64,000 nt of DNA from Armatimonas rosea (GTDB lineage Bacteria > Armatimonadota > Armatimonadia > Armatimonadales > Armatimonadaceae): positions 62,001 through 126,000 of the forward strand of contig NZ_JACHGW010000005.1 in NCBI RefSeq assembly GCF_014202505.1, given 5' to 3'. The notes under the pieces were generated by a model. It was not told the DNA's origin. It did no database searches and saw nothing but the letters and a program-made list of their open reading frames with translations. How positions within the stretch are numbered: position 1 is the first letter of the stretch; every line of letters starts with the position of its first letter. This document shows positions 5,049-50,655 of this stretch, in pieces. A program made the translations under genes and the position numbers.

Positions 5049-5105
5049 TCTACCTATGTATAGGGATTGTATTTTATAACTGAAGACTGGAGGCAATATT
5101 TGATA

Positions 5106-5984
5106 ATGGACGATGGACTAAGACGTGCTGCTGTGACGGGCTGTGACAAGAAATATATTGAGGGAGCTAAGACATTACTTGCGAGTATTGAAAAACATCA
5201 GCCTGATGTGAAACGTTATTGCTTGACAATAAGTGAAGATTATGAAGAAGTAAAGCAGGGTATAGGAAGCCTTGCTGAAGTGCATGCTGTTCCTAGATCG
5301 ATAAAAGTTGTTAGTTCTGATTTGCAACCTGCCGTGCTTAGACTGTTTATGCCTTGCTTGCCGGTTGATATTGCTGTATGGTTTGATTGTGATGTTATTA
5401 TGTGCTCTACTTCTCCAGAGTTGTGGTCTGTAAACCCTGGTGAAGTTTTGGCAGTGCTAGATACTGCGTATTCAAGAGATTGCTGGATTGAGGATTCATT
5501 AAAAAAATTTTACCGGGCTCAATATCCTGATTTAATTGATAAGCGAGGGTTTAATTCGGGGGTTTTTGCAATCCGATGCTCCGAATGGTTAGATCTCCCT
5601 GAACGTTATGAACAGGAATTTGAAATGGGAAAGTATCCTACCCATCCTCGTATATTTGATCAGCCAATGCTTAATGGATTAATGGCATCAAAAGTTCGTT
5701 ATCTGCCGTTTAAGTTTAATGCACATAACTTATTTGATCACAAGATTCCTAAAGATGTAAGGGTAATTCATTATACTGGTCGTAAAAAGCCTTGGGGTGT
5801 GAATTTCTCGAAATGTGAACCTTCATATTATTATTGGTTAAAGTTTGGGCTTTGTGAAAGGAATGAGATGGTTTTGCTCTTGGTTTATATTAAAATATTG
5901 TTGCGCGCTCCGATACGCCTTCTGTTTATGTTTTTGAAAAACAGGCAGAGTTTTTTTAATTATATTGGTGACGAGAATAAGTAA
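5106..5984 (+). CDS. glycosyltransferase family 8-like
   Basis: 292 aa. It opens with AAVTGCDKKYIEGAKTLL, has a DxD-type metal site in VWFDCDVIM (about residues 96-104), then FNSGVFAIRC, DQPMLNGLM and a late HYTGRKKPW, the order found in GT8 retaining glycosyltransferases that use UDP-sugars. The reading frame is visibly AT-rich compared with its neighbours and uses AT-ending codons freely, so it was probably acquired by transfer. It sits between a MITE-like element and an insertion sequence. The ATG at 5106 is preferred to an upstream TTG at 5067. Confidence 0.8.
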   Translation: MDDGLRRAAVTGCDKKYIEGAKTLLASIEKHQPDVKRYCLTISEDYEEVKQGIGSLAEVHAVPRSIKVVSSDLQPAVLRLFMPCLPVDIAVWFDCDVIMCSTSPELWSVNPGEVLAVLDTAYSRDCWIEDSLKKFYRAQYPDLIDKRGFNSGVFAIRCSEWLDLPERYEQEFEMGKYPTHPRIFDQPMLNGLMASKVRYLPFKFNAHNLFDHKIPKDVRVIHYTGRKKPWGVNFSKCEPSYYYWLKFGLCERNEMVLLLVYIKILLRAPIRLLFMFLKNRQSFFNYIGDENK

Positions 5985-6020
5985 GTCGTTGGAGAGTATT
6001 GGGACTATGTACGGTGAAGC

Positions 6021-6927
6021 TAGCTCTTAACCATTGGTGCGCATCTCGCTGTTGAGATTTGCTGATATTTCTTGAGTCAAGTGACTTGCGATAGGATGGG
6101 TTGTCTACACTCTTCCTGGAGCAAATCACTTGACCCTCACTGATTTTATCGCCACTTTGTTCTTTCATGTTGACGAAGCCATGACCGACGTACCCAAAGA
6201 TCCAAGGTCACAACTTTGGCCAAGTGAACTCGTTACCATCGGTGTCCTCTACGTACTCAAGGCACAGAGCCAGCGACGCTTTTGGCAGTGGCTCGAGGCA
6301 AACTACCTTCACCTATTTCCAGCTCTGCCAGAGCGCTCCCGCCTGTTCCGACTGATGCGAAACCATCAAGATTGGGCAGATCGTTTCTTGTCTGACCCCG
6401 GTATGCTCCTGGTAAGCGACAGTTTGGGCGTTGAACTGATTCATCCTCGCCGACAGGGGCGAAGTGAGAAGCAAGTTGGTGAAAAAGGCAAGTCCAATGG
6501 TCAATGGTACGTGGGAGTGAAGTTCTGCCCTCTGCTCAACTTTGATGGTCGCATCTGCGATTGGGATGCGGAAGGAGCCAGCCTTTACGATGGTGATTTT
6601 CAATGGATGCTCTCGGATCATCCCAACGAGCCTAAACTTGTAGATAATGGCTTCCATAAAGCTGCCAAACGTGGCGGCGATTGTGAGAATCTGATCGTGG
6701 CAACTACCGAATGATCGCCGAGACGCTCTTTTCGGGTTGGGTTCGCGTTTTGGGGATGAAGTCGATCACGGAGCGTGGCTGGTCAGGTATCGAGAGCCAT
6801 TTTGCTTTTGCTTGTGCTGCCTGGAATTTGGTGACGGATATGGCCACTACCTTATTTGGCGGTGACAAAAAGAGCATGAGTACGGCTTGGGTGCCGATTT
6901 GAAATAGCACCAATGGTTCTTACAGCT
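6021..6927 (+). mobile_element. insertion sequence, about 0.9 kb, transposase frameshifted
   Basis: Inverted ends share aaccattggtgc (left 6029-6040; right, inverted, 6907-6918), with looser similarity for a few bases outside. Between them lies one transposase gene split over two frames (6130-6902). No clear target duplication is visible, so the outer limits are approximate. The element lies between the AT-rich GT8 gene and a decayed formylglycine-enzyme gene and marks an accessory patch. Confidence 0.7.
6130..6902 (+). pseudogene. IS transposase (DDE type), frameshifted
   Basis: The first part (6130-6714) reads through a typical N-terminal helical region (DVPKDPRSQLWPSELVTIGV) and a first acidic motif in VSDSLGVELIHP. 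The second part (in frame with 6711-6902) reads RGNYRMIAETLFSGW... then ERGWSGIESHFAFACAAWNL, the normal C-terminal end of IS4/IS5/IS982-type transposases. The homology passes from the first frame to the other at about 6684-6700, where the first frame ends in non-homologous residues. No A- or T-run slippery site is seen, so a simple indel is likelier than programmed frameshifting. Confidence 0.75.
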
Positions 6928-35785: not shown

Positions 35786-38173
35786 ATGGAAGAGCAGCGG
35801 GAGAGTAAAGTGGCTGTGGTGGTAGTCCACGGAGTGGCATCGCAGATCGCGGGGCACAATCCCCGGGCGGTAACCAAGCTCCTACAAGGGATTACGTTCT
35901 ACGAGGAGGAGGGGACGGAGAGAAACGACTTCCCCCGTGCGGATCAGGTTATCACCAAGGTTCAGCGCAAGCGCTACAGTGGCTGGCTTGAAGAGACCTT
36001 CCAGATCGCAGCCCAGCCCGAGAACCGTGCCCTCCGCGATCCCGAGGGGGCTACGGAGGACCTGAAATTTACCCGCAAGCTCCTCGAGGGCTACATCCCT
36101 CCGTCCGTCGATGGCATCTACAATACGATCAAGTTTTGCGGAAAGCGTCTCTCCGGTGATCGCCGTGAGGGAAGTGGGGAGCTCCCTGTCGATGTATTTG
36201 AGGTCTACTGGAGCGATCTGTCGGCGGTGGGGACACAGCTTGCACGTATCTTTACGGGGCTCTACAGCCTCCTCTTTCACCTCACGGAGCTGGGGCGTCT
36301 TACCCTGGAGAGGTCTGAGGTCGCTCCCAAGGGCCTTGCCTTTCTCCATACAACAACAGGCTGGCTTCTGGGGCGTGTCTTACCCCTCCTCTTTTTGCCC
36401 ACGCTCTTCTTCTTGATGGGCCAGGTTCCCCTGGCATTTGAGCAGACGGCCCTTCGGATCTGTGTTGCCCTCCTGCCGGCACTCGGGATACTGGGGATGG
36501 CGATCGTTCGTGCCCAAAAGAAGAGTGATCTTGGGATTCTGCTCCTGGGAGCGGCGGCACTTGCGAGTGGACTGTTCCTCTTCCGATGGACAGCGAGTCC
36601 GCCCACGGCCTGGTACCAGCGTGCCAGCACTCTCCTGGTTGTGGAGTGGGGAGTGCTCTCCCTTGCGGTGATTGGGCTTCTGGTTGCACGGCTCCAGGCC
36701 TATGCTCCCTCCCTGACAACAATTATCAACCAAGCGTTCAGAGACGAGGCACGGGCTGTTCCCGCACAGACACGGGATATCCTGGCTCCCTTGGTTGTTG
36801 TGGCCCTCTGCGCCGTGACGGCCTCGGTGTTTCTCTTCCCGACACAACCGCGTCCGGTGCTCGCCGATCCCCCGACACTCTGGTTGATGAACCTTGCTTT
36901 GTTTTTCTACCGGGGCTGGCTTGTGGGGCTGGCTTTGGTTGGCAGCTTGGCTGTCACGAGCACGCTCTGGGCCATCGTCGGGCACCTGACGGCGTGGGCG
37001 ACTCCGAGGCGGAGCCAGGTCTGTGGAACCGCCGTTATCACGCTCTTGGTGCCCTTTTCGCTCTCTCTCTGGCTGGGCAATGGCTTCCTCGCTCTGGGAA
37101 ATAAGGTGATCTACCTCTGCTGCGAGCTCAACCTCCGCTCTGCGACTCTGCAAGCCCTGATGATGGGAAGAGACGACTCTCTTACCAAGCTGCGTATCCT
37201 CCAGAGATTTACGCGACAGCTTGATGTGGTCTTTGCTCCTCTGCCAAGCTGGTGCTACTACGCGGTGGGGGGGCTCGTGCTAGCGGTCATGAGTGCGGCG
37301 TTGGTGCTGCTGCCTTCGATCCTGCAGGAGGGAAAGAGCCCCCAGTCTGCGGTCACGAACCTAGATGCACGTGGGCACTGGCTCTCGCGTGGGTACAAGA
37401 TTCTCTGGGGAACGCTCGCGGTGCTGACTGCGTCCGCCATTGTCGATGGGGTGGCGAGTGCCTTTATGTTTGGGAGCAAGGCACAGCTGAATGCGACCAC
37501 CTCGGTGGTGGCAGTGAGCTCAACGGGAGCCCTGCTTCTCCTGGCACTGGTGTTTCAGGGGCAGCGCGTTGCCCAGGTGCTAGGAGCGACCGTGGGGGTG
37601 GGAATCGATGTCGACAACCACCTGCGGGAGCTGCCTGAAAAGGCAACACCACGTGCGCGCATCTTCAACCGCTATGTCTCGCTCCTACGCTACCTCGCCC
37701 ATGAAGACTACTCTCGCATTGTGATCGTTGCCCATAGCCAAGGGAGCGTGATCACGGCGGATCTGCTGCGCTATCTGGCGGCGGCTGACTTTGAGGGCTC
37801 TCACTCGGTGCTCAAGAGACTCCCTCCTATCTCACTATTCACCATGGGCTCACCGCTCCGGCAGCTCTACTACCTTCGGTTTCCGGACCTCTATGCCTGG
37901 GTTGTCGCACAGAATAACGGCCCCGATCCGTCGCAGCTTTTCAAGGTACAGACCTGGGTCAACGCCTACCGTAGCGGTGACTATGTGGGACGGCGGCTTC
38001 TCCAGGAAAATGGGGTGGGGGCACCCGACTGGACGACTACTCGGTTTGGCGAGGGAAACGAGGGGAACCGGGTCGAGTTTTGCATCGGTGAGGGAGCCCA
38101 CACCCACTACTGGGACTGGAGCGCTCCTGAGATCGCGCTGGAGCTGGATCGGCTGATCGCGGAGCAGGCCTAG
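35786..38173 (+). CDS. membrane-embedded alpha/beta hydrolase-like protein
   Basis: 795 aa. The first strand (VAVVVVHGVASQ) with an HG motif is at the very N-terminus; the nucleophile elbow VIVAHSQGSVITADLL (Ser about residue 650) comes near the C-terminus, followed by FTMGSPLRQLYYLRF and candidate acid and His (YRSGDYVGRR, GAHTHYW). Between these ends lie about 500 residues with some nine hydrophobic segments. This makes a lipase/esterase fold interrupted by a membrane domain. No named family is recognised. A phospholipid or sterol-type ester is possible. Ribosome-binding site ggagggag before the ATG. The 3' end overlaps holB by 4 bp. Confidence 0.65.
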   Translation: MEEQRESKVAVVVVHGVASQIAGHNPRAVTKLLQGITFYEEEGTERNDFPRADQVITKVQRKRYSGWLEETFQIAAQPENRALRDPEGATEDLKFTRKLLEGYIPPSVDGIYNTIKFCGKRLSGDRREGSGELPVDVFEVYWSDLSAVGTQLARIFTGLYSLLFHLTELGRLTLERSEVAPKGLAFLHTTTGWLLGRVLPLLFLPTLFFLMGQVPLAFEQTALRICVALLPALGILGMAIVRAQKKSDLGILLLGAAALASGLFLFRWTASPPTAWYQRASTLLVVEWGVLSLAVIGLLVARLQAYAPSLTTIINQAFRDEARAVPAQTRDILAPLVVVALCAVTASVFLFPTQPRPVLADPPTLWLMNLALFFYRGWLVGLALVGSLAVTSTLWAIVGHLTAWATPRRSQVCGTAVITLLVPFSLSLWLGNGFLALGNKVIYLCCELNLRSATLQALMMGRDDSLTKLRILQRFTRQLDVVFAPLPSWCYYAVGGLVLAVMSAALVLLPSILQEGKSPQSAVTNLDARGHWLSRGYKILWGTLAVLTASAIVDGVASAFMFGSKAQLNATTSVVAVSSTGALLLLALVFQGQRVAQVLGATVGVGIDVDNHLRELPEKATPRARIFNRYVSLLRYLAHEDYSRIVIVAHSQGSVITADLLRYLAAADFEGSHSVLKRLPPISLFTMGSPLRQLYYLRFPDLYAWVVAQNNGPDPSQLFKVQTWVNAYRSGDYVGRRLLQENGVGAPDWTTTRFGEGNEGNRVEFCIGEGAHTHYWDWSAPEIALELDRLIAEQA

Positions 38174-39189
38174 GGAGCCAGTTTCATGAGCAGGGCTTCA
38201 GTGGCCAGCTGCGCATTGGCGTTGCGTGCCAGGTGCCGACGGAACTGAAACAGAGTCTCAAGGCACTGGGCGAGCTGCTCGGGGCGGTACTTGGACGCGG
38301 CCTCACGCGCTTGGGTGCGGCGGTCTGTGTGAAGAATCGGGGCGTCTGGGCCACGAAGCGAGAGCTGTAAGAGATCCCCGTACCAGACTGCGAGCACATC
38401 AAGGGCTCGGCCCATGTCTCCGCGTGACGACTTCTCTTCAGTATCTTCTTCGCCTTTTTTTGCCTTGGGGGGAGCAGAGAGCTTGCGTAGGTCCTCGGCG
38501 AGGCGGAAAGCGGCAATGGAGGGGGAGAGGGCGATCCGATACGCGAGGTCAAGGAGCTGGCCACGCTGCTCTTGGAGCTCTCCTGTCTCGGCAAGACGGA
38601 GAGCACGGCCTGGGGCCCCCTCGGCATAGGCAGCAAGGGTCGCCGCATCAGGGATCCCCCGGTTGGTGAGGGCACGCTGAATCGTCTCACGGGGAACCGA
38701 CGAGAAGCGCACGACTTGGCAGCGCGAGAGGATAGTGGGCAGTACGCTGGTCACACTGGGTGCACAGAGGACGAACTGCACATAGGGGGGCGGTTCTTCC
38801 AGCGCCTTGAGGAGTGAGTTGGCCGACTCCTCATTAAAAGTCTCTGCACGCTCAAAGAGATAGACTCGGCGTGGGGCGTTGATGGGGGCAAAGCTTAGGT
38901 TTTCCAGAGCTCCGGGAGGATGCCCTGGTCGGCTCCAGAGCTGCCAGATGCGAGTAAGCTCTCCATCCGGCGCGACTCGCGTGAGATCAGGGTGCTGGTT
39001 CTCGGTGATGCGCTTGTTGTGCACAGGCGTGTTGCCAAAGAGAGCCTTGACAAAAGCGAGCGCTGTGGTTGTTTTGCCGACGCTATCGGGGCCGACAAAC
39101 AAGTAGGCTTGTGGAACAGCATCGCGCTCAAGAGCCGCTTTGAGGGTCGCAATCGCAGTCTCTTGGCCCAGAATCTCCGAGAATAGCAT
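38170..39189 (-). CDS. holB: DNA polymerase III delta' subunit
   Basis: 339 aa. AAA+ clamp-loader fold: MLFSEILGQETAIATLKAAL at the start, Walker A-type LFVGPDSVGKTTTALAF, RVYLFERAETFNEESANSLL and KALEEPPPYVQFVLCA, then TILSRCQVVRF, the delta' sensor region. The four-Cys zinc module seen in many delta' and tau proteins is missing here. It opens the beta clamp for loading at replication forks together with delta and gamma/tau. It ends convergent with the hydrolase gene. Confidence 0.88.
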   Translation of the reverse strand: MLFSEILGQETAIATLKAALERDAVPQAYLFVGPDSVGKTTTALAFVKALFGNTPVHNKRITENQHPDLTRVAPDGELTRIWQLWSRPGHPPGALENLSFAPINAPRRVYLFERAETFNEESANSLLKALEEPPPYVQFVLCAPSVTSVLPTILSRCQVVRFSSVPRETIQRALTNRGIPDAATLAAYAEGAPGRALRLAETGELQEQRGQLLDLAYRIALSPSIAAFRLAEDLRKLSAPPKAKKGEEDTEEKSSRGDMGRALDVLAVWYGDLLQLSLRGPDAPILHTDRRTQAREAASKYRPEQLAQCLETLFQFRRHLARNANAQLATEALLMKLAP

Positions 39190-39511
39190 CCTATCCTACG
39201 TTATACCCGATTCGGCTGAGCGAGGGAAGAAGAGAGGATTTTGGGAAGCCAAGTACCTGCGGGAGCGCCCGAAGCCCCGGTTAGGGAAGCGGCCTCTATT
39301 CTTTTATCACCTCCACCGATAATCTCATGGAAATCAGCTGGTGCCCGAAAACATAGGTAGCTACAGTAAAAAGAAAGTGTCTTGTGTACGCATTGCACGA
39401 TGATAGGGTTAGTCGCAAGTATATTGCAGTACCGAATGTTGATTGCTAAAAAAATAGCCTGAGAACCAGGTTGTTGCACCACAGGATGATCATGGTTTGT
39501 GGAGGACAAGT
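39190..39511. other. intergenic region before the exosortase/EPS locus
   Basis: 322 bp between the divergent holB and the epimerase gene. No ORF, tRNA or clear hairpin terminator is found. The sequence turns from GC-rich to AT-rich at about 39290, the border of the lower-GC locus. A ribosome-binding site ggagg is at 39501-39505. No promoter can be named with confidence. Confidence 0.4.
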
Positions 39512-40498
39512 ATGTTGCGAAAAGCGTTAGTAACAGGAGGAGGCGGGTTTATTGGGAGTCACCTTGTCGATCTTCTCCTGAAAGAAGGTTGGCACGTTCG
39601 TGTTCTCGATAACTTTAGCACAGGGACACTTGGGAATCTCTTTTGGTGCGCAGATCAGGTTGAGGTCGTTGAGGGGGATATCCGGAATAAAGAAATCTGC
39701 CAGACCGCATGTAGTGGAGTAGATACTGTCTTTCATCTGGCTGGTATGGCGTCCGTGGGAGACTCGATTGCGAATCCACTTTTAGCCCATGAAGTTAACC
39801 TGACGGGCACACTGAATATGTTACTTGCCGCACGTGATGCGAAGGCTCGTCGTTTTGTTTTCTCGTCGTCAACGTCTGTATATGGCAATGCTGAGACAGT
39901 GCCCACCAATGAGAATCAAAAAATTGCACCTCTCTCTCCCTATGCTTCGCAAAAAGCAACTGGTGAGTATTACTGTAGGAATTTTTATGATGTATTTGGT
40001 TTGGAGACTGTAATTCTTCGCTATTTTAATGTTTTTGGTCCGAGACAGAACGCAAATTCGGGTTATGCTGCTGCTATTCCGCGATTTGTTCAAGCTGCGA
40101 TTGACGATAGACAGCCTATTATTTTTGGAGACGGCTTGCAAACTCGTGACTTTGTCTATGCAGGGAACGTTGCATTTGCAAACCTGCGTGCTTCTCTGGC
40201 TGATGGGGTTGCAGGTCATTCTTTCAATATTGGAAGCGGAGATTCTATCTCACTTTTGGATCTACTGTCTGAGCTACGTCAAACAACCGGTGCACCGTTG
40301 GAGCCAGAGTTCCAGCCTGCTCGTCTTGGGGAAGTCCGTCACTCACGCGCCGACATCTCTAAGGCTATCGCTCTCCTTGGGTACGCACCCCATGTCCCCT
40401 TTGGGGAAGGGATACGACGTACGGTTGAAGAGGCGAAGGCTGATCGGACTGTCCCTGAAGCCAAGGTCGGCACCTACTCTCAAAGGGCTTCTGCATAA
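39512..40498 (+). CDS. NAD-dependent sugar epimerase (UDP-glucose 4-epimerase/WbpP-like)
   Basis: 328 aa extended SDR: ALVTGGGGFIGSHLVDLLL, DNFSTGTLGNL, VFSSSTSVYGNA with the active-site Ser-Ser-Thr, the YxxxK pair in SPYASQKATGEYYC, and the substrate region FGPRQNANSGYAAAIPRF. It is typical of NDP-sugar 4-epimerases/dehydratases of exopolysaccharide loci. Translation signals are good (ggagg 7 nt before ATG). First gene of the unit with exosortase, EpsI-like and glycosyltransferase. Confidence 0.85.
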   Translation: MLRKALVTGGGGFIGSHLVDLLLKEGWHVRVLDNFSTGTLGNLFWCADQVEVVEGDIRNKEICQTACSGVDTVFHLAGMASVGDSIANPLLAHEVNLTGTLNMLLAARDAKARRFVFSSSTSVYGNAETVPTNENQKIAPLSPYASQKATGEYYCRNFYDVFGLETVILRYFNVFGPRQNANSGYAAAIPRFVQAAIDDRQPIIFGDGLQTRDFVYAGNVAFANLRASLADGVAGHSFNIGSGDSISLLDLLSELRQTTGAPLEPEFQPARLGEVRHSRADISKAIALLGYAPHVPFGEGIRRTVEEAKADRTVPEAKVGTYSQRASA

Positions 40499-40501
40499 GT
40501 G

Positions 40502-41446
40502 ATGGAGAGCAAAAACACCACGTTGTCCGTTTCCTCACAGCGCATCTCCTTGCTGAGTGGGGGGATCATCTTCGTACTGGTGTTGTTGCTTGCCTTTAGT
40601 GCACTGGGTTTTCTTGTGACTGTCTGGCGAGAGGACCCTGGCCTCTCCCACGGGCCCATACTTTTTCTGATTACTGGTGGGCTTTTATGGATGAAGCGCA
40701 GTCAGTTACGTACTTGGGAGAGTGCTAATCCTCAAGGGTTAGTTTTGTTAGTCTTGGCATCCTTGCTTTTGGTTGGCTCTGTAGTTGCAGATATCGCCTT
40801 TCTACAGCCACTTTCTTTTTTTACTATATTGCTAAGTGGTATTTTGTTCCTGGGGGGACGTGAAGCGTTTCTACTCTGCCTAGGGCCTATTGGACTGCTT
40901 GGTTTTTCAATACCATGGCCAACAACTCTCGTATCTGCAATATCTTTCCCGTTACAACTGTTTAGCAGTGCGTATGCTGCATTATTCGCAGGCATGCTAG
41001 GTATGCCAATTCACAGAAATGGTGTTGAAATCTTTGTGACTTCCGAGTCGGGTGATAAGGTTATTTATTCGATAATTGTCGCGCAGAAATGTAGTGGCTT
41101 GACATCGCTGATGGTGTTACTTGCCTTCACCTATCTCATTGCCTACTTTACTCCTGTGCGATGGTGGGGGCGGTTGCTCATGATGAGTGCGGTGGCCCCG
41201 CTCGCCCTCTTTGGGAACGCTGTTCGTCTAACAATTATCTTACTCGTGGGAGGCCATTATGGAGCGAAGCCTGCCCAGTGGGTTCATGATAATGAGCAAC
41301 CTATCTTAATTTTTCTCTGTAGTTTTGGTCTGTTGGGACTTAGGGCACTTTTGATGCGTTGGATTCCGCTTGGGGACTCGACTGCAGGTATTGTGACCCC
41401 CGAACTTGATGAGACACCTGATAAGACAAGTGAGGCAGAGGTATGA
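40502..41446 (+). CDS. exosortase
   Basis: 314 aa, about eight hydrophobic segments. The three catalytic residues of the exosortase/archaeosortase family are all found: Cys in AQKCSGL (about residue 197), Arg in GNAVRLT (about 242) and His in WVHDNEQ (about 262); the N-terminal pattern PGLSHGPILFL is the usual one. It cleaves PEP-CTERM-type signals in the inner membrane and hands the protein on, often for glycosylation. A GTG three bases upstream is another possible start. Follows the epimerase at once; its last bases overlap the EpsI-like gene (ATGA). Confidence 0.9.
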   Translation: MESKNTTLSVSSQRISLLSGGIIFVLVLLLAFSALGFLVTVWREDPGLSHGPILFLITGGLLWMKRSQLRTWESANPQGLVLLVLASLLLVGSVVADIAFLQPLSFFTILLSGILFLGGREAFLLCLGPIGLLGFSIPWPTTLVSAISFPLQLFSSAYAALFAGMLGMPIHRNGVEIFVTSESGDKVIYSIIVAQKCSGLTSLMVLLAFTYLIAYFTPVRWWGRLLMMSAVAPLALFGNAVRLTIILLVGGHYGAKPAQWVHDNEQPILIFLCSFGLLGLRALLMRWIPLGDSTAGIVTPELDETPDKTSEAEV

Positions 41447-42081
41447 TTGCTCGTTACCGACTATTATATTTGATCTGCATCTTAGTCGTTACGGTAGTTG
41501 GTAGTTTTTATAGTCGTCGAGTTGAATCCATTGCATCGACAAAAGTCGACTACTTTCAAGATCTACCCCTCCAGTATCGAGATTGGTCGATAACTCCCAG
41601 TGTTATCTCGGAGTCCGATCGAACTGTGCTACGGCCTGATGCGGTTACCTTAAGGCGATATAGTTCCCCAAATGGAGAGATAGTAGATCTAGCTGTCATT
41701 GCTGGTCATCGAAAACAAACGGTTCATACACCCAGTTTTTGTATGGTGGGAGGAGGGTGGAACACTCTTACGGAAGACAGTATTACATTAACTATAGCCG
41801 GAAACAAAGTGCCAATGCGGCGCGCGTTGATGGAGAATGAAGGTCATAGAGCCATGATGACTTATTTCTTTACGGATGGTGCCCTGTGCCTAGAAAGTCT
41901 GCCAAAGTTCCAGTTTGAGTTATTCAAGCGCCGCTTGCGTGGTGTGATTTCACAGGGGGCTCTTGTTCGAGTTATCGTGCCTGTCTTGGGGGATACTGAG
42001 ACAGCGACCCATCTCTCTGACGATTTCGCAGTAAGTATAATGCCCGAACTGTTGGAGCAGCTTCGTCGACAAAATCGTTAG
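41443..42081 (+). CDS. EpsI-like exosortase-associated protein (DUF3485)
   Basis: 212 aa. One N-terminal membrane segment (LLYLICILVVTVVGSFY), then a periplasmic domain with the family motif HTPSFCMVGGGW (Cys about residue 100; usually H-x-P-x-x-C-x-x-x-x-G-W), MENEGHRAMMTYFF and a final predicted helix. Proteins of this type are encoded next to, or fused to, exosortases and are needed for exopolysaccharide production, but their exact activity is unknown. Coupled to the exosortase by a 4-bp overlap. Confidence 0.85.
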   Translation: MIARYRLLYLICILVVTVVGSFYSRRVESIASTKVDYFQDLPLQYRDWSITPSVISESDRTVLRPDAVTLRRYSSPNGEIVDLAVIAGHRKQTVHTPSFCMVGGGWNTLTEDSITLTIAGNKVPMRRALMENEGHRAMMTYFFTDGALCLESLPKFQFELFKRRLRGVISQGALVRVIVPVLGDTETATHLSDDFAVSIMPELLEQLRRQNR

Positions 42082-42188
42082 ATGGCTAATTGGAATGATA
42101 TCCCTAAGGAGCATCAAAGGATCTCAGTAGTCGTACTGCACAATTTTTGCCGATAGGCCATCTTACATTTTAGAGGAGTAGGGACCAC

Positions 42189-43964
42189 TTGGCTTTCAAT
42201 TTTAAATATAAGAAAAAAAAACGTTTATCTGATGATACGAATACGGTGCCAGTAGAGAGAATGGCTAGTGAGGCGTCTACTACACTAGCACCCAGTGAGA
42301 CCCTATTTCAGAGATTCTTGTTGATCGTTTTTCTATTAGGCCTCCCGATAGTTATATATGTTATATACTATAAGGCGATGTTTCCTGGTCTCGTAAATAG
42401 TGATGCACTCGATTATGCTCAGATTGCACGTAATCTAAGTAAAGGGAGAGGTTTTACTACTTATTTTTTGAGGCCGTTGGCATTAACTCATGGTGATAAC
42501 GTTTTTCGGCAGCCGGATCTTACACATGGTCCCCTTTTTCCTGTTGTCCTTGCTGTTGCATTTGTAGCTCGTGGTGCTACAGATGCTATTGTTGCTTATA
42601 TTTCAGGGGTTTTTTACTTGCTTACTGTGCCTGTTGTGTATTGGCTCGGTAGACGGATTTTTAGCTCTGTTGTGGGATTTATTGGTGCCTTGATTTTTAT
42701 GGCGAATCCATTGATACTACAATACTCAGTATCTGGGTTGCCAATTACCTTGCAGATATTTGTAGTTACCTGCTTATTGTTAGTTGTTTATAGTTTAGCC
42801 AGTAAGTCTCAAGGTGAGAATAGTTCGCCATTACCGCGGGGAGAGCTGGTATTGTGTGCGGGATTGGTTGGTGGGCTCTATCTCATCGATCCTGTTTTCT
42901 TATATGTTGTACCTGTAATCACGATTGCGGTCATGTCATTGACACGGGGGCGGTGGGGTAAGTCATTACCCTTGTATGGGGTAACCCTTTTAATCGTTAT
43001 CGTTCCTTGGATGATTCGTAATGGGCAACTAACGGGAAATCCCTTCTTTGGTCTGCGTAGTATGGAAGTATGGATGGGGACAAAGGACTACTATCCTGGA
43101 GCACTTGCCTATCGGACAATGCCGCAAGATCTGATACCTGGGGTTGGTTTGTATAAGGCGGTTGTGAGAAAAATCTTCTTAGGAGCGGGGGAAGTTGTGC
43201 AGGGGTTCCCCCAGGTGAGTGCTAGCTGGATGCTTGCATTCCTTTTGCCTAGTTTGCTTTTTCGTTTTCGGGATGGCGCGACCAATGTGGTTCGTCGTGT
43301 GATGATGTATTGCTTCTTGGGAATTCTGGTGGGAATGCTGCCTTTTGGGGTTGAATTACCGCTTTTTGCACCACTCATTCCAACGATGCTACTATTTGCC
43401 ATTGCCTATCTTCTTCAGTTGATAGAGCAATCGCGCGTGCCACGTTCCACGATTACCCTCGTTACGGTGCTTTTAACAGGAGCTGTTATCCTACCTCTTC
43501 TGCGAGATGTGTTCCTTCTTGATAAGCCGAAACTCGCAGGGGCCGTAAATTTTTCACGTTTTCTACAACAAAATGCCGATAAAGAAGATGTGGTATTGAC
43601 AGACCAACCTTGGCTTGTTTCTTGGTATGCGGATCGCCCCGCAATCTGGGCTCCGGCTGTCGATGGAAATATTAAGCTGTTCCGGAAACGATTTTCTGGG
43701 CTGCGCTGGCTTCTAGTAACAGATGAGGTGCGTAGCTTTTCCCCTGAATGGAGTCAGGTTTACACAGTCTTCTTTCAGTGGAATACAATCTATGGGCAGG
43801 CAAAAAATGCAGGGCGCCCTCTGCCAGCACCTCTGGTGGTACAAGGGGCTCCGTTCATTCTTGTTGATGCTCTGAATGGTTTTACCGTGTTAGCACCTGT
43901 GGCAGGAAGCCCGCCTGAGGTTATACTGGCTGTCTTGCCGAAAGGTGCTACGGGATCGAATTAG
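42189..43964 (+). CDS. GT39-like membrane glycosyltransferase
   Basis: 591 aa from a TTG with gaggag upstream; an ATG 24 codons later is possible. After a first helix (FLLIVFLLGLPIVIYVIYY) comes SDALDYAQIARNLSKGRGF, the acidic loop of GT39-type transferases that take sugars from polyprenyl carriers; about ten more hydrophobic segments follow. In this locus it could glycosylate the exosortase substrate or work on the polysaccharide. AT-richer than the flanking chromosome. Confidence 0.75.
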   Translation: MAFNFKYKKKKRLSDDTNTVPVERMASEASTTLAPSETLFQRFLLIVFLLGLPIVIYVIYYKAMFPGLVNSDALDYAQIARNLSKGRGFTTYFLRPLALTHGDNVFRQPDLTHGPLFPVVLAVAFVARGATDAIVAYISGVFYLLTVPVVYWLGRRIFSSVVGFIGALIFMANPLILQYSVSGLPITLQIFVVTCLLLVVYSLASKSQGENSSPLPRGELVLCAGLVGGLYLIDPVFLYVVPVITIAVMSLTRGRWGKSLPLYGVTLLIVIVPWMIRNGQLTGNPFFGLRSMEVWMGTKDYYPGALAYRTMPQDLIPGVGLYKAVVRKIFLGAGEVVQGFPQVSASWMLAFLLPSLLFRFRDGATNVVRRVMMYCFLGILVGMLPFGVELPLFAPLIPTMLLFAIAYLLQLIEQSRVPRSTITLVTVLLTGAVILPLLRDVFLLDKPKLAGAVNFSRFLQQNADKEDVVLTDQPWLVSWYADRPAIWAPAVDGNIKLFRKRFSGLRWLLVTDEVRSFSPEWSQVYTVFFQWNTIYGQAKNAGRPLPAPLVVQGAPFILVDALNGFTVLAPVAGSPPEVILAVLPKGATGSN

Positions 43965-43970
43965 GGGAAC

Positions 43971-43999
43971 TTCCAGCACGCAAGAATATGCTGTATAAT
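43971..43999 (+). promoter_or_regulatory. candidate promoter of the PEP-CTERM-like gene
   Basis: TTCCAG (43971-43976), 17-bp spacer, TATAAT (43994-43999). The -35 is weak. It would give a leader of about 85 nt before the ATG at 44090, so this gene may be made separately from the operon upstream. Confidence 0.45.
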
Positions 44000-44089
44000 T
44001 TGGATAGTTCTCAACGAGTTCACTGTAGTTACTTACCCAAAAGGGACGAGCTACAGATGATAATCCTCAAAAAGAAAGGAGGTGAAAAA

Positions 44090-44737
44090 ATGAAGAAAAA
44101 CATATTGACAGCCTTGTGTGGTATCGGTTTGCTGATGGTGGTAGCACCAGCACATGCCTATACCTACAACTTCAATGCGACACTTTCAAACGCTGGTTTG
44201 ATTCCTGGTAATCCTGGACCTCAAGGATGGAACGTCATCATGACGTCTGCTGATAATCAGAACTGGAATGTAACGATCCAGGCACTCGGAGGTGCAAACA
44301 CACCTCTTGACCCGGCGAATAACATCCAGTTCTTTTTCCTAAGAACTGGGGGGACGACCCTGGTTACGGGGTTTGACCCAACTGCGGGTTCTACCACTGC
44401 AGGCGGTGCTGGGAACGTCGCAGCTGTTTGGAGTCGTAATGGAGCAAACTTTAACCCTACCAACGCGACTACTGGCCTGTTGGTTGCTACGGGCCAGAAT
44501 CCAGCGGATTTTGGGTTAGGGCCATCTGGTTCCTACACGAGTAACGTATTTACTGGTAGTTTCGCTACAAATAACCCCTTTGCTCAACGCTTTGGTGTTA
44601 CGGTCAGTGGAATTGGTGGTTATACCTACACGTCTTCCCTGCAGTCAGTCGCACCTGAGATGCCTGGTGCAGCTTTGCTTCTGGTGGCTCTCCTGCCACT
44701 GGGGTTCGCTGTTCGCAAGCACATGGGTGTGGCTTAA
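44090..44737 (+). CDS. secreted PEP-CTERM-like exosortase substrate (PEM variant)
   Basis: 215 aa. Signal peptide KKNILTALCGIGLLMVVAPA; a mature region rich in Asn, Gly, Thr and Ser (beta-rich, many NG/NP turns, low charge); and at the C-terminus APEMPGAALLLVALLPLGFA followed by a short basic end VRKHMG. That tripartite tail (short motif, hydrophobic helix, Arg/Lys) is the exosortase sorting signal, with PEM in place of PEP. The mature sequence resembles no known family. Very strong ribosome-binding site (aaaggaggtg). It lies next to the only exosortase gene of the window. Confidence 0.8.
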   Translation: MKKNILTALCGIGLLMVVAPAHAYTYNFNATLSNAGLIPGNPGPQGWNVIMTSADNQNWNVTIQALGGANTPLDPANNIQFFFLRTGGTTLVTGFDPTAGSTTAGGAGNVAAVWSRNGANFNPTNATTGLLVATGQNPADFGLGPSGSYTSNVFTGSFATNNPFAQRFGVTVSGIGGYTYTSSLQSVAPEMPGAALLLVALLPLGFAVRKHMGVA

Positions 44738-44838
44738 GGACGCATGCATGGAAGGTCTACTTCCGGTGTGTGTGGTCGCTACAAAGTTTATGTGTTGTCT
44801 CCTTAGGGGGACAACGCCGACAACTTGAGGCAAAATTT

Positions 44839-44887
44839 AGAGGCATAGGCGAGTGCAGTTATGCAGTCAAATGTGCCTCTTTTTATT
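44839..44887 (+). terminator. intrinsic terminator after the PEP-CTERM-like gene
   Basis: Stem agaggca (44839-44845) with tgcctct (44874-44880), then ttttattt. The loop is long (28 nt) and can fold a second small hairpin. It closes the exosortase unit. Confidence 0.55.
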
Positions 44888-44949
44888 TAGGGATAGTCTC
44901 AAGGCAATTCTTGCTAAGATCGTGAAGACTTAGGCTCAACAGGGAAACT

Positions 44950-46032
44950 ATGGAAAAGACGAATCGCCCTACTCCGGCGAGAGGGCGGTGGACTTGGTTT
45001 CAGGTGATTATCCTAATAGCGACGGTGAGCTATACCATCCTTCTATTGTGTCTCATAAAGCTCATTAGGCAAGGTCCAGACTATAATCCTTTCACTTTTA
45101 TTAACCTCTATTTACCTCAAATATTTTGGGGGATACCCACTCTTCTTCTATTTCTCCTCCTTGTGCTTTCTTTCTCAGGGAAACGGCGCTGGTTGGCATT
45201 ACTACCCCTTTTTCCTCTCTTCCTCGTCCTTGGTCCTCTGATGGGCCTCTGTGGGTATCCGTGGACTAGGCCCGCCCATGCGGGTGAGCTAGGGAAGTCG
45301 GTCCGAATCATGACCTATAACATTGGTCAAGGGAGAGATGTCGATGGTGTGATTGGTGAGGTAGAGAGACAACACCCAGATGTTTTTATTGCTCAGGAAA
45401 TCACTGCTCCCTTTGAGCAAGTTTTTCGTGCTAAATATCCCAACTGGAGTATTCAAACTCGTGGGGAATTTCTTATCGCAACAGCTCTGCCGCTCTCGTC
45501 AGTGAACCGGACTGAGCTTCCTCCTTTGATTGATGATCCCTGGAAACACCCTGGCTATCTGCGTGGGATTGTCCGGTTTGGGCAACGAGACATTGCTATC
45601 TATAATACACACCTAAGCACACCACGTCCCGCACTAGAGGCCATTCGCTCTCGAGATCGCACTGGCATACATCAGATAGAATCAAATGCCAAGAGTCGGA
45701 TTGCGCAAGCGAAAGCACTTGCTCAGGCGTTGTCCAGAGAGTCACTCCCTGCGATTTTAGGAGGGGATTTTAATGCCCCCGAGTCTTCTGTTGCCTGTCA
45801 GCTCATCCGTGATGCAGCGTTCCGCGATGCCTTCTCTGAGGCAGGGCGTGGCTATGGCTACACTAGCGGCCACCGGCTCCGTTTTGGGATGTCCTTTGCT
45901 CGAATTGATCATGTCTATGTCTCGCACGAGTGGGCTGTTAAACAGTGTCATCCGGGGGGGAAACTTGCCTCGGATCACCGTCCTGTCGTGGCGGATCTCG
46001 TCCTGCCCGATAGAACTGCTGGGAACCATTGA
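44950..46032 (+). CDS. membrane-anchored endonuclease/exonuclease/phosphatase (EEP) family protein
   Basis: 360 aa. Three N-terminal hydrophobic segments (residues about 14-36, 47-75, 78-98), then an EEP domain: VRIMTYNIGQGRDVDGVIGE, DVFIAQEI, GGDFNAPESSV, FARIDHVYVSHEW and ASDHRPVVADLVL, giving Asn, Glu, Asp-Asn and Asp-His of the metal-dependent active site. It would hydrolyse a phosphodiester on the outer face of the membrane; the substrate (nucleic acid or phospholipid) is unknown. Same strand as, and between, the exosortase unit and the SLBB gene. Confidence 0.85.
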   Translation: MEKTNRPTPARGRWTWFQVIILIATVSYTILLLCLIKLIRQGPDYNPFTFINLYLPQIFWGIPTLLLFLLLVLSFSGKRRWLALLPLFPLFLVLGPLMGLCGYPWTRPAHAGELGKSVRIMTYNIGQGRDVDGVIGEVERQHPDVFIAQEITAPFEQVFRAKYPNWSIQTRGEFLIATALPLSSVNRTELPPLIDDPWKHPGYLRGIVRFGQRDIAIYNTHLSTPRPALEAIRSRDRTGIHQIESNAKSRIAQAKALAQALSRESLPAILGGDFNAPESSVACQLIRDAAFRDAFSEAGRGYGYTSGHRLRFGMSFARIDHVYVSHEWAVKQCHPGGKLASDHRPVVADLVLPDRTAGNH

Positions 46033-46092
46033 CCCAGGGTTGCACTATCCTCAACTCGCCTGCACCTTCCCTACGTGGAGTGTCGTTTAAAA

Positions 46093-47571
46093 ATGTTTCA
46101 AACAAGCCGTGTCCTGCCCCGTTTTTCGTTGATGACTGTCTCTTTGCTCGCCGTCGGTTGTCTGACAGTCTTGTTAGGGGGAGGGGCTGGTGGCGCTCTT
46201 GCTCAGACGACTCCTCCGGCACAGGGAGGGGGCGGTGTTGAGCCCTACAATGGTGCGATCCGAAAGAACGATGTGGTGAATGTCCAGATTGCAGGGGAGC
46301 CAACTCTCTCTGGGCTATTTCGGGTTGGGATGGATGATGCCATCACTCTGCCGCTTGTTGGCTCTCTGAAGGTTGCTGGCCTGCTTCCTACGGCAGCTGC
46401 AGATCTTATTGCAGGTCTCTACAAGAAAAAACAGCTCCTGGTTGATCCCCAGGTGGTTGTCAGTATTGTCGGGCGGCCGGAGAAGACGGTTTTTGTCTCT
46501 GGGGCTCTGGATCGTCAAGGTCGTGTGGTGATTAATGAAAAGACCCGTCTTGACGAGGTACTCGAGCCAGCGGGCGTGACCGCGAATGCCGATCTTAGTA
46601 AGGTGGTTATCACACGGGGCGAGACAAAGATCTCGGTTGATTATTTGGTCTACCGCTCGGGTAAAGACACACCCGACGGTAAAAACAACCCGATTCTTGA
46701 GGATGGAGACAAGATCTATATCCGTGCGCGGATTCAGCTCTCGGGCACCATCAAAATTGGTGGTGAGGTTCGAACACCGCAAACCACGGCACTAACCAAT
46801 GGACTGACCCTCTCCCAAGCGATTCAGCAGTCCGGGGGCGTGACGGAGTTTGCAGATCGCGATAAAGTGACTCTCTCGCGTGACGGAAAAGATATCATTG
46901 TTGCCTATAAAGCGATTCAAGAAGGCCAGACCAGCAAAGATATCCCACTCCAAGATAAAGATGAGATCTTTGTTCCGCGGCTAATGTTGGGGAGTGTTAA
47001 GGTCAATGGGGAAGTACGATCACCGCAAACGGCAGTTCTGACTAAGGGCATGACCCTGGCGCAGGCGATCCAGATGGCAGGAGGGGTGACCGAGTTCGCA
47101 GATCGTGATCGAGTTACGATCTCACGGGATGGTAAGGAGATTCTTGTCCCCTACAAAGCGATCCAGGAGGGCCAGACAAGCAAGGATCTCCCGTTACAGG
47201 ATAAAGACGAGATCTTTGTTCGTCGCCTAGAGAAGCCAAAGGTGTTTCACGTGACGGGTGGGGTCGTGCGAGCAAACACCTTCCCGATCAGTGACAATGT
47301 CACCCTTAGTGACGCGATCGCGATGTCTGGTGGGGTCCAGGATGGTGTTGATCTCAAGAAGATTAAGGTATTGCGCAAGACGGAAAAAGGCGAGATCGTT
47401 ACCAGGGTCTATAACTTGACACTTCCCGAAGACCTGGCAGCTCCCGTCCAAGCCGAAGACTCGATCTCTGTGCCTTACCCACCCATGAAAAAGCCGAAGC
47501 CAGATCTCTTCACGATCCTTGGAGCCTTGACAAGCATCGGTTTTCTCTACACGCAATTTAATCGACGTTAG
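46093..47571 (+). CDS. polysaccharide export protein with poly_export and SLBB domains
   Basis: 492 aa. A signal-peptide-like start (SLMTVSLLAVGCLTVLL), then a poly_export domain (NDVVNVQIAGEPTLSGLF, VGMDDAITLPLVGSLKVAGL) as in Wza-type outer-membrane export proteins. Next come three SLBB units starting near residues 219, 302 and 383; the first two are almost the same (GEVRTPQTTALTNG/GEVRSPQTAVLTKG ... KAIQEGQTSKD), 82 residues apart. A last hydrophobic segment (LFTILGALTSIGFLYTQF) may anchor it. It would form the periplasmic/outer part of an exopolysaccharide channel. Confidence 0.88.
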   Translation: MFQTSRVLPRFSLMTVSLLAVGCLTVLLGGGAGGALAQTTPPAQGGGGVEPYNGAIRKNDVVNVQIAGEPTLSGLFRVGMDDAITLPLVGSLKVAGLLPTAAADLIAGLYKKKQLLVDPQVVVSIVGRPEKTVFVSGALDRQGRVVINEKTRLDEVLEPAGVTANADLSKVVITRGETKISVDYLVYRSGKDTPDGKNNPILEDGDKIYIRARIQLSGTIKIGGEVRTPQTTALTNGLTLSQAIQQSGGVTEFADRDKVTLSRDGKDIIVAYKAIQEGQTSKDIPLQDKDEIFVPRLMLGSVKVNGEVRSPQTAVLTKGMTLAQAIQMAGGVTEFADRDRVTISRDGKEILVPYKAIQEGQTSKDLPLQDKDEIFVRRLEKPKVFHVTGGVVRANTFPISDNVTLSDAIAMSGGVQDGVDLKKIKVLRKTEKGEIVTRVYNLTLPEDLAAPVQAEDSISVPYPPMKKPKPDLFTILGALTSIGFLYTQFNRR

Positions 47572-47621
47572 TCTATTTAGTGCTAGTGGCTGAATAGGAG
47601 CGTTTAGCCGATAATGGGGAA

Positions 47622-49199
47622 GTGCAGCGCTCACTTCCCCTTCTGACCCTTCTGGCGACTCTTGGTCTCTATCTCGCCTTCCTCTTGCCTCGCTTGCTGT
47701 GGATCGATGAGACAGGGGTTTGGGTGGGCCAAGAGCACCTCTGGAGCGATTGGCCGTGGCACCTGGCGATGGCCCGCCAGCTCGCCGCAGGCATCTGGAC
47801 CCATCCGCTGATTGCAGGGGAGTCTCTACACTACCCTTTTGCCATGGCGCTCATCACCGCAGGGCTGCTCAAGCTAGGAGTGGGACTCACCGCGGCATTT
47901 CTCTTTCCCATCTTGCCTCTGTGGTTGTTGCTTTTAGTCGGTATGTACCGCTTTTGGACCCCCCTACTCAGCAAGCCCTGGTTGGCACTTCTACCAATCT
48001 TCTTGTTCTTTCTCGCGGCGGGCCCCGGTGGCCTCCGCTGGCTGCTGGATATCAAGACCCAAGGGCTTGGGGCACTACTAGCCCCACCACACGAGTATGG
48101 GCGTGCTTTGGAGGAGTGGGGCTATGAGTGGTATGCCGGAAACTTCCTCGTCGGGATGCTTCTGCCCCAGCGTGCTTTTCTCCCTGGGATGACCCTGACG
48201 ATCTGGCTACTCTGCGGTCTCCAAAGGGCAAGCTGTCGGCGTCAGTGGGGGCTGATCGGGCTTGGCGCAGGGCTCTTGCCGATTGTCCATGTCCATAGCC
48301 TGATTGCATTGATTGCGTTTGGTGCAGCATTGCTCTGGCCGCACCGTGCACGCTGGCGCGAGTGGGGGCTTGCGTTCCTGCCCGGCGCTGCACTTGCCAT
48401 TGTGCTTTACTTGATCTACTTGCGCCCCGAGAACCCCTACCCCCATTTTGTCAAGCTCCAGCTAGGCTTTGAGGCCAAGACCCCGCTCGATTGGTTTATG
48501 ATGTGGTGGCGCTTCTGGGGGATGGCCCTCCCGGTGACCTTCTGTGGGCTTTTCTTTTTGCCACGTGGCAGTTTGCGTGGGATTGTAGGGGCGGCAGCTG
48601 GGCTTTTCGTGCTCGCTAATGTCATTCTCTTCCAGCCCATAGCCTGGGATAACTCCAAGGTCTTTCTGTGGGCCTACTTTGGCTTCTCAGGGGCGATGGC
48701 CTGTCTCTTGGGGCACTTTGGGCAGCGTGGAGTAGGAGGGAAGGTGATTGCGAGTGTCCTGTGCTTCTCACTGACAATCACCGGGCTTGCAGAGCTGATT
48801 CGCCTCCAGCGCACGGATGTGAAGCCGTGTCAGGTGGTCTCACGGGACGATATGCTCCTTGCGGAGTCGCTTCGGGAGCAGACACCGGAGGGAGCGATCT
48901 TTCTCACGGGAATGGATATCGCCAACGCGCCACTCTGGGCGGGGAGGCCGATCTTTCTCGGCTTTGGTGGTTGGATGCCTAACTTCGGCTACGACCATCG
49001 CCAGCGGGAGACGGACCTCAAGAAGATGTTCTCAGGAGCCTCTGACGCACCCGAGCTGCTCAAGAAATGGCACATTGACTTTGTCTTTATCGGCCCGGGC
49101 GAGCGCTCCAGCTGGGGAGCTAACGAAGCCTGGTACGCAGCCCACTATCCGCTTCTCTGCAAGGTGGGGGATAAGAGCGTCTATCAGATCAAACGGTAA
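47622..49199 (+). CDS. polytopic membrane protein, GT-C-like
   Basis: 525 aa from a GTG. About twelve hydrophobic segments; a first helix LLTLLATLGLYLAFLLP, then WIDETGVWVGQEHLWSDWPW and HLAMARQLAAG, an acidic first loop as in GT-C sugar transferases of the GT39/GT83 type, and a final soluble domain (LAESLREQTPEGAIFLTG, FVFIGPGERSSWG). No named family is certain. It lies after the SLBB export gene, so a role in exopolysaccharide or glycoprotein assembly is plausible. Ends at a perfect hairpin shared with gnd. Confidence 0.6.
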   Translation: MQRSLPLLTLLATLGLYLAFLLPRLLWIDETGVWVGQEHLWSDWPWHLAMARQLAAGIWTHPLIAGESLHYPFAMALITAGLLKLGVGLTAAFLFPILPLWLLLLVGMYRFWTPLLSKPWLALLPIFLFFLAAGPGGLRWLLDIKTQGLGALLAPPHEYGRALEEWGYEWYAGNFLVGMLLPQRAFLPGMTLTIWLLCGLQRASCRRQWGLIGLGAGLLPIVHVHSLIALIAFGAALLWPHRARWREWGLAFLPGAALAIVLYLIYLRPENPYPHFVKLQLGFEAKTPLDWFMMWWRFWGMALPVTFCGLFFLPRGSLRGIVGAAAGLFVLANVILFQPIAWDNSKVFLWAYFGFSGAMACLLGHFGQRGVGGKVIASVLCFSLTITGLAELIRLQRTDVKPCQVVSRDDMLLAESLREQTPEGAIFLTGMDIANAPLWAGRPIFLGFGGWMPNFGYDHRQRETDLKKMFSGASDAPELLKKWHIDFVFIGPGERSSWGANEAWYAAHYPLLCKVGDKSVYQIKR

Positions 49200-49233
49200 C
49201 AGCCAGCGGGCAGACCATCTGCCCGCTGGCTGT
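49199..49233. terminator. bidirectional hairpin between convergent genes
   Basis: A perfect 16-bp stem acagccagcgggcaga/tctgcccgctggctgt (49199-49214, 49218-49233) with a 3-nt loop lies between the GT-C-like gene and gnd, which converge. There is no long T-run on either side, but its strength and place point to a shared terminator. Confidence 0.6.
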
Positions 49234-49239
49234 TGGAGG

Positions 49240-50655
49240 TTACGCGCCCCAGCTAGAGTGGAACGTGCCCTCGCGGTCGGTGCGCTCGTAGGTGTGGGCG
49301 CCGAAGAGGTCGCGCTGGGCTTGGATCAGGTTCGCTGGCAGGCTCGCGCGGCGGTAGCCGTCGTAGTAGGCCAGCGACGACGCAAACGCGGGGACGGGGA
49401 CGCCTAGCTTGACGGCCTCACCGACCACGCGGCGCCACGCGGCCTGGCGTGCGGCCAGCCCATCGCGGAAGTACGGGTCGAGCATGAGGTTGGCTAGCTC
49501 CGGGTTGTTGTCGTAGGCGTCCTTGATGCGGTTGAGGAACCGGGCGCGGATGATGCAGCCACCGCGCCAGATGGTTGCGATCTCGCCACGGTTGAGGCTC
49601 CAGCCAAACTCCGCCGCGGCAGCGTCCATGAGCTGGATACCCTGGGCGTAGGCGACGATCTTGGAGCAGTAGAGCGCATCACGAATGTCGTTGACAAAGG
49701 CCACTTTATCGCCCTCAAAGGCCACATCGACCGGCCCAGGGAGCTGAGTACTGGCGGCGACGCGCTCGTCTTTTAGGGCGGAGAGGCAGCGGGCAAAGAC
49801 GGCCTCGGTGATTCCGGTGACCGGGATGCCTAGGTCCAGCGCGTTCTGGCTGGTCCACTTGCCGGTACCCTTTTGGGCGGCCTTGTCCAGCACGAAGTCC
49901 ACCAGGTGGCCCTCGGTGAGCGTGTCCTTGGTCTGGAAGATCTGGGTCGTGATCTCGATCAGGAAGCTGTCCAGATCGCCCTCGTTCCACTCCCCAAAGG
50001 TCTTGGCGAGCTCATTGTTGCTGAGGCCGCAGACATTCTTGAGAAGATCGTACGCCTCGGCGATGAGCTGCATGTCGGCGTACTCGATCCCGTTGTGCAC
50101 CATCTTGACATAGTGGCCAGCACCATCGGCACCGATATACGCGACACAGGGCGTGCCATCGACCTTGGCGGAGATCGCCTCAAAGATCGGTGCAACCCGG
50201 TCATAGGCCTCACGCTGGCCACCGGGCATGATCGAGGGGCCGTTGAGCGCGCCCTCTTCGCCACCAGAGACCCCAACCCCAAGGAAGTTCAGGCCCTTGG
50301 CGGTGAGGTCTTTGTTTCGGCGCTGGGTGTCGGTGTAGAGCGAGTTGCCGCCGTCGATCAGCGTATCGCCGGGGGAGAGCAAGGGGACCAGCTCGTCGAT
50401 CACCGCGTCCACCGGGCCGCCTGCCTTGACCATGATCAGGATGGTGCGGGGCGCCTCCAGGGCATCGACAAGCTCCTTGAGGCTGTGTGCCCCAACAAAG
50501 GTCCCCTCGGTGCCAAAGTCGGCGATAAACTCATCGACCTTGCTAGCGGTGCGGTTGTGCACGGCGATCGGGAAGCCATTGTGGGCGACATTGCGGGCGA
50601 GGTTCTGGCCCATGACGGCGAGGCCGGTGAGGCCAAAGTGCGGTTTCTGACTCAA
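49240..50655 (-). CDS. gnd: 6-phosphogluconate dehydrogenase, decarboxylating
   Basis: 471 aa, normal length. The NADP site [18 protein letters not shown], the catalytic [19 protein letters not shown], and [20 protein letters not shown] with the active-site Lys, then a C-terminal domain ending in [20 protein letters not shown]. It oxidises 6-phosphogluconate to ribulose-5-phosphate and CO2 with NADP+ in the pentose-phosphate pathway. The start is a TTG with acggag before it. The minus-strand TAGAAT at 50691-50696 may be its -10. Confidence 0.95.

Follow-up and report, generated by a model that had tools for sequence, protein, structure and literature searches.

The DNA examined here, a stretch of 64,000 nucleotides from Armatimonas rosea referred to as the window (G000:C5:62001-126000), belongs to a 6.33 Mb genome of the phylum Armatimonadota assembled in 19 contigs (G000). 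It contains a real exosortase locus whose variant sorting signal, a C-terminal tail with a PE[LM]PG motif, is common to nine proteins of the genome. Exosortase targets are known to be secreted, retained by means of a tail helix and then processed at the motif (PMC1569441, PMC3237569). Canonical PEP tails are also present in the genome, and two sorting codes seem to be in use in parallel in one cell. The original prediction had assigned a single substrate to the enzyme; in that form it does not stand, as the genome encodes eight more PE[LM]PG proteins. The likely explanation, drawn from sequence comparison, is that an acquired exosortase of an unnamed subtype reads the [AT]PE[LM]PG signal and that the tag has spread from a founder target, with the two codes operating side by side.

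A second class of sorting tails

The genes for an epimerase, an exosortase, an EpsI-like protein, a GT39 glycosyltransferase and a secreted protein were found in the order originally described, by means of reading frames and family matches (Table 1; all family scans used Pfam and NCBIfam 20.0 with model cut-offs applied). The secreted protein, the window substrate, ends in APEMPGAALLLVALLPLGFAVRKHMGVA. Its departure from PEP and its basic end, both pointed out originally, are genuine, and the APEMPG tail is missed by PF07589. This model marks 66 places in the genome at E <= 10, 53 of them over its cut-off, and none of the nine PE[LM]PG tails is among the 66. The window tail, too, lies outside them, so PF07589 does not see this class. 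Likewise, no PEP-CTERM model of NCBIfam matched any of 11 PE[LM]PG proteins (the nine from G000 and those of genomes G062 and G124, described below), whereas a PEP-tailed paralogue at locus L014 gives 29.3 bits with TIGR02595 against a cut-off of 16.

Searching the whole genome with a tail profile (A3) revealed nine PE[LM]PG tails, not one: the window tail and eight remote ones, distributed over four contigs. The nine score 49.7-70.7 bits (E <= 2.8e-12), and the next match in the genome reaches 23.1 bits (E 5.9e-4). A DNA pattern derived from the peptide, CCNGARNTNCCNGG, gave 80 matches, compared with 34 for a reversed control. Nine of these are the PE[LM]PG tails, none of the 30 others read as loci has a helix tail, and the remaining 41 are covered by the tail profiles only, which spanned the whole genome.

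Motif, helix and basic end are present in all nine proteins, as is an N-terminal hydrophobic segment; signal peptides were judged from hydrophobicity and inspection only. The canonical tails resemble PEPGT-LALLALG-RRR, whereas the other class reads [AT]PE[LM]PG and has PALLPV in the helix in eight of nine cases. The two classes form separate clusters, helix included (LLPALLPV versus LALLALG). The mature parts are varied, comprising discoidin-like (PF00754, over the cut-off in one of two), fibro-slime/PA14 and NHL/Vgb propeller types, along with proteins giving weak carbohydrate-binding matches and several without any match. A run of secreted tail-bearing proteins with very similar signal peptides and either PEPGT-type or TPELPG tails was also observed at G000:C5:33681-39517 (L107).

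The start of the window substrate is better placed at ATG 44090 than at 43988, since a ribosome-binding site, AAAGGAGG, lies upstream and the resulting 215-residue protein has a signal peptide. Its mature part has no known family, as originally noted; nothing in Pfam or NCBIfam exceeded the cut-off. Matches at E <= 0.01 were found in three of 121 genomes, namely its own and two at E 0.002 and 0.008, and none of them is a clear relative. A search with the substrate also gave weak matches (E 0.03 and 1.6) to two of the eight remote PELPG proteins. The fold predicted without an alignment has a mean pLDDT of 43.3, and in this low-confidence model the tail helix occupies residues 193-212.

The exosortase and its distribution

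Membership of the window enzyme in the exosortase family is supported by PF09721 (cut-off 25.7 bits) and by TIGR04178 (60.7 bits against 23). Cys198 (codon 41090), Arg243 (41225) and His263 (41285), the residues of the proposed active site, are intact, as had been stated, and invariant in all four aligned homologues. Comparison with the profile models of known subtypes returned the family match, with no Xrt model over its cut-off: the best is XrtA (109.4 against 208), XrtW, V, D, B, C and T also remain below theirs, and the broader TIGR02602 gives 100.7 against 105.55. Three homologues scanned in the same way likewise matched no Xrt model over cut-off. NCBIfam 20.0 thus has no name for the subtype of the window exosortase. 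No solved structure resembling the exosortase profile by sequence was found.

Of 291 Armatimonadota genomes searched, only four contain a match to the enzyme at E <= 1e-50: G000, G034, and G062 and G124, which represent one genus of a different family from G000. The exosortases of G062 and G124 are about 51% identical to the window enzyme and 94% identical to each other. The 18 other genomes from the genus, family and order contain no match better than E 8.9e-28, compared with E 2.7e-74 in G062; in G001, which shares its genus with G000, nothing better than E 3.1e-21 was found. In both G062 and G124, one APELPG protein was detected, located directly before the exosortase, which is followed by EpsI and an epimerase. 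The one-target arrangement is seen for this tail class in G062 and G124, not in G000. Every canonical tail read in these two genomes is of the VPEP type; nine PF07589 matches in G062 yielded eight such tails, and eight in G124 yielded seven. FCADI and LQIAIW motifs occur in the APELPG protein of G062 (L111:11473-12255). Its counterpart in G124 (L125:180-968) matches a thioester domain below threshold (PF08341, E 0.0087).

Because circularity had to be avoided, a further tail profile (A4) was trained on the eight remote PELPG tails of G000 only, with the window tail excluded. Outside the training set, its strongest match in the 291 genomes is to the window tail, next to the exosortase, at E 1.9e-5. 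This bears on the idea that the window enzyme is dedicated to the adjacent PEM protein alone, while another enzyme serves the eight TPELPG proteins. Such an arrangement would agree with PEM in the adjacent protein and PEL in the eight others, with the less similar helix (27.7 bits with A4, compared with 61-85 for the training tails), and with the single target beside the enzyme in G062 and G124. However, no other non-training tail in the 291 genomes comes as close to the eight as that of the window, and the neighbours of the orthologous enzymes carry APELPG rather than PEM, so this exosortase clade goes with PEL too. A dedicated enzyme is regarded as improbable.

The 58 hit loci read for tails were drawn from A3 and A4 matches; matches without a locus, many of them the weakest, are outside this count. 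Among the 58, a PE[LM]PG motif followed by a helix and a basic end is confined to G000, G062 and G124. In a separate reading with a strict tail filter, the distinct tails are PEP, except those of the window and G062, a TPELPP tail at L070 and a non-PEP-type frame at L002. Confirmed PE[LM]PG tails in the 291-genome search occur only in the three genomes having this exosortase with an adjacent target.

The genome contains five exosortase-family genes, the window gene and four more. The original prediction had named many PEP-CTERM proteins and a second, better-fitting exosortase as evidence that would speak against it. The former are indeed many (the 53 above), whereas none of the four other exosortases was seen to fit the signal better, because the PEM/PEL signal follows the window-exosortase clade across genomes. 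Three exosortase-family genes, one fused to EpsI, lie within about 6 kb at G000:C11:15218-21394 (L109, L110); by eye, their neighbours are EpsI-like and lipoprotein-like. Contig C1 carries another exosortase gene.

PE[LM]PG may instead be a tolerated variant, with the conserved C11-type exosortase handling both tails and the window locus serving only its neighbour or an exopolysaccharide. The C11-type enzyme is the one common across the family, eight of the nine PE[LM]PG genes are distant from the window exosortase, and the two tags occur on the same kinds of protein. Yet G001, in which two of the three C11 exosortases have orthologues (89% and 44-45% identical) and PF07589 has 18 matches, gave no PExPG tail at E <= 0.1 with profile A3. 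The clustering of the two tail classes apart, helix included, also argues against shared handling. This possibility is judged unlikely, though less so than a dedicated enzyme.

The reading of the window exosortase as the reader of PE[LM]PG tails meets several difficulties, which should be considered together. The four-member clade (G000, G062, G124, G034) has an SH-aLRT value of 93, short of 95, and the position of G034 within the clade means that the PExPG label costs two changes on the exosortase tree. In G034, no PE[LM]PG tail was found by profile and no target near its two exosortase loci. Since G062 and G124 are one genus with exosortases 94% identical, the co-occurrence of enzyme and signal amounts to two lineages and one exception. 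Profile A4 places G062 at 1.6e-3 and G124 at 7.4e-3, among background matches, from which their tails stand out by the PE[LM]PG letters and position only. Furthermore, the other exosortases of G000 could process PE[LM]PG tails too.

The G034 assembly, with a completeness of 85% and about 690 contigs, gives no PF07589 match at E <= 0.01. It holds two genes of the window-exosortase clade, one perhaps degenerate, and a GT39 gene about 39% identical. The perhaps degenerate one, on contig C679 (L114:10124-10948), is a 274-residue frame in which the latter half of an exosortase runs into an EpsI end, perhaps through decay or misassembly; GT39 and SLBB genes are its neighbours, the SLBB gene adjoining the exosortase.

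Exchange of tags between proteins

PELPG tags and PEP tags occur on related proteins. The PELPG protein at C3:313339-314205 is 52.6% identical over 215 residues to a PEP-tailed protein at L073 (C1, tail match 871562), and that at C3:353693-354694 is 51.0% identical over 257 residues to one at L014 (C3, tail match 73472) and 43% identical to a PEP-tailed protein of G001. These paralogues were identified among 91 PEP-tailed frames of G000 and G001, a number that includes duplicates from overlapping loci.

At the DNA level, the final 105 bases of four PELPG genes are 84-88% identical to those of a fifth in ungapped comparison, whereas the 55 bases before the tail and the 100 bases after it agree at only 23-45%. 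Two PELPG genes on C5 are, by eye, alike past the stop codon as well. For one more tail of almost the same sequence (C3:314388-315128), the ungapped comparison fails (44%), since its end is longer and repeated in part. Because the tail DNA is alike while the flanks are not, the PELPG tag behaves, and seems to move, like a cassette.

Genes and base composition of the locus

The five locus genes share a single orientation and tight spacing, with every frame intact, and the EpsI start overlaps the exosortase end by 4 bases. They fall in the interval from holB to gnd (window 38170-50655). The top NCBIfam match of the epimerase is a UDP-sugar C4-epimerase model, under that model's cut-off, and its counterpart in the corresponding G062 locus is 49% identical. 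A consensus promoter scan found 10 sites, compared with 8.6 expected. The lower GC of the block, part of the original description, was borne out: it is 42-53% across 39-47 kb, against about 60-65% over most of the window, and third-position GC is 0.40-0.47 in the five genes, against 0.66-0.84 in four flanking ones. A second low-GC spot (38.6% at 5-6 kb) lies at window positions 5067-6714, where glycosyltransferase-like and transposase-like frames are seen by eye. Downstream of the locus, the predicted SLBB export protein is present (PF02563, SLBB), while the GT-C label given to 47622..49199 is backed by no Pfam or NCBIfam match.

The epimerase, GT39 and SLBB genes, together with the low GC, would also suit a locus devoted mainly to exopolysaccharide or S-layer glycan, with an inactive or decaying exosortase and a tail that is a plain membrane anchor. 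All frames are intact, however, Cys, Arg and His are kept across divergent homologues, and the adjacency of the target is kept in two families. Such a locus is considered very improbable.

Table 1. Positions of the locus genes (window coordinates), the remote PELPG proteins (contig coordinates) and the zinc-ribbon gap loci
Feature	Position	Strand	Evidence
NAD-dependent nucleotide-sugar epimerase/dehydratase (SDR), first in putative operon	39512..40498	+	PF01370 E 4.7e-59
Exosortase, no assigned Xrt letter	40499..41446	+	PF09721 148.5 bits; orthologues in G062, G124, G034
EpsI-like exosortase-associated protein	41443..42081	+	TIGR02914 79.9 bits vs cut-off 42.8; PF11984
GT39/PMT-like membrane glycosyltransferase (PMT_2)	42189..43964	+	PF13231 28.3 bits vs cut-off 26.1
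Secreted protein, 215 aa, founder-like target, tail APEMPG-helix-RKHMGVA	44090..44737	+	Sequence, tail-profile match
Sorting tail: APEMPG, hydrophobic helix, basic end	44650..44734	+	Alignment with own-genome tails and two orthologous-locus tails
Membrane endonuclease/exonuclease/phosphatase-family protein, within low-GC block	44950..46032	+	PF03372 E 7.5e-15
SLBB/Poly_export outer-membrane polysaccharide export protein	46075..47571	+	PF02563 and 4 SLBB stretches
Multi-spanning membrane protein, earlier labelled GT-C	47622..49199	+	No Pfam or NCBIfam match
Remote PELPG proteins, contig C5	37483-38160; 38960-39517
Remote PELPG proteins, contig C3	310032-310622; 313339-314205; 314388-315128; 353693-354694
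Remote PELPG proteins, contigs C4 and C2	C4:606526-607299; C2:1464347-1464955
Zinc-ribbon gap loci	L235-L241, L243, L245, L246, L248, L252-L255, L257, L259, L263, L121

GT39 loci and further tail types in the phylum

The window GT39 has matches at E <= 1e-15 in 83 of the 291 genomes, many of them beside exosortases. When the GT39-exosortase gaps of other families were examined for targets, 19 of the 21 read held a double zinc-ribbon membrane protein of about 185-230 residues instead; in the other two (L250, L258) no zinc-ribbon frame was found. In G026 and G100, the order exosortase-EpsI-GT39-target is the same as in the window, with IPEPAS tails. Hence the PE[LM]PG class is not alone in having a linked target behind GT39, and GT39, considered as a possible determinant of the signal, does not as such go with non-PEP tails.

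Tails of the form [ST]PEL[PS] were found in G041, G095, G112, G264, G265 and G280, from families f11, f21 and f29, which carry GT39-zinc-ribbon exosortases forming a separate clade of 20 rows in the tree. The presence of these tails in families with these enzymes may hint at a third code. Tails of the [ST]PEL[PS][PS]-helix-RRR kind were observed at L264, L266, L220, L290, L198, L275 and L200. At L229 (G133:C233), the nearest GT39 relative (43%) is preceded by a protein with a VPEGKS tail, and a TPEWNS protein lies 2.3 kb on; no exosortase was found on that 17 kb contig.

Comparison with known sorting systems

The closest parallel is the PEP-CTERM/exosortase (EpsH) system, which shares PF09721, an EpsI neighbour, a tripartite tail, many targets and polysaccharide genes nearby (PMC1569441). 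Unlike in that system, the signal here is PE[LM]PG, missed by both PF07589 and TIGR02595, and forms a second class beside the canonical one. That an exosortase subtype would have a variant signal of its own recalls XrtC/VPDSG-CTERM and XrtD/VPLPA-CTERM, as these NCBIfam models are named. However, no Xrt model passes its cut-off for the present enzyme, and no model matched the PE[LM]PG tail.

GlyGly-CTERM/rhombosortase is likewise a system of one enzyme and many tails, in which a lone target tends to adjoin the enzyme: one-target systems keep the two adjacent, while many-target systems have them apart (PMC3237569). The enzymes are unrelated, and adjacent and remote targets coexist here, whereas for rhombosortase genomes with several targets that paper saw this in two noted cases only. 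The GT39-zinc-ribbon-exosortase-EpsI loci of Armatimonadota also place GT39 beside an exosortase and EpsI. They differ from the window in exosortase clade, in the intervening zinc-ribbon protein and in having no target seen alongside; some genomes of these families carry TPEL[PS] tails. Searches of open-licence papers returned nothing on PELPG, PEMPG or PExPG with exosortase and, by title, nothing related on an armatimonad exosortase.

Proposed mechanism and significance

In the proposed mechanism, the exosortase, accompanied by EpsI, the sugar enzymes and one founder target, probably arrived by horizontal transfer, as the GC content and the absence from relatives indicate. The combination of an adjacent founder-like target with eight remote ones fits an acquired one-target pair that later expanded. 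Targets would reach the periplasm by means of a signal peptide, and the tail helix would keep them anchored in the inner membrane. The exosortase cysteine would then cut at or near PE[LM]PG, passing the protein to the surface or to an exopolysaccharide-linked destination. EpsI would assist, and GT39 is a candidate for glycosylation of the targets or synthesis of an acceptor. The tag would have been copied to eight further proteins, some of them related to PEP-tailed ones.

To our knowledge, how exosortases discriminate between targets has been little tested. Two discrete tail classes on related proteins, together with a matching distinct exosortase in one genome, make specificity addressable by tail swaps. 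Neither PF07589 nor TIGR02595 detects the tail class, so annotation would miss surface proteins of this kind. The arrangement also looks intermediate between the one-target pairs of the relatives and systems with many targets. A more general and rather speculative possibility is that the residues following Pro-Glu serve as an address in this phylum, with different exosortase clades reading PEP, PE[LM]PG or PEL[PS]-type tails in one cell. A newly arrived enzyme with a single founder target might then recruit resident surface proteins by swapping tag cassettes and thereby reroute them to a different glycan or surface destination.

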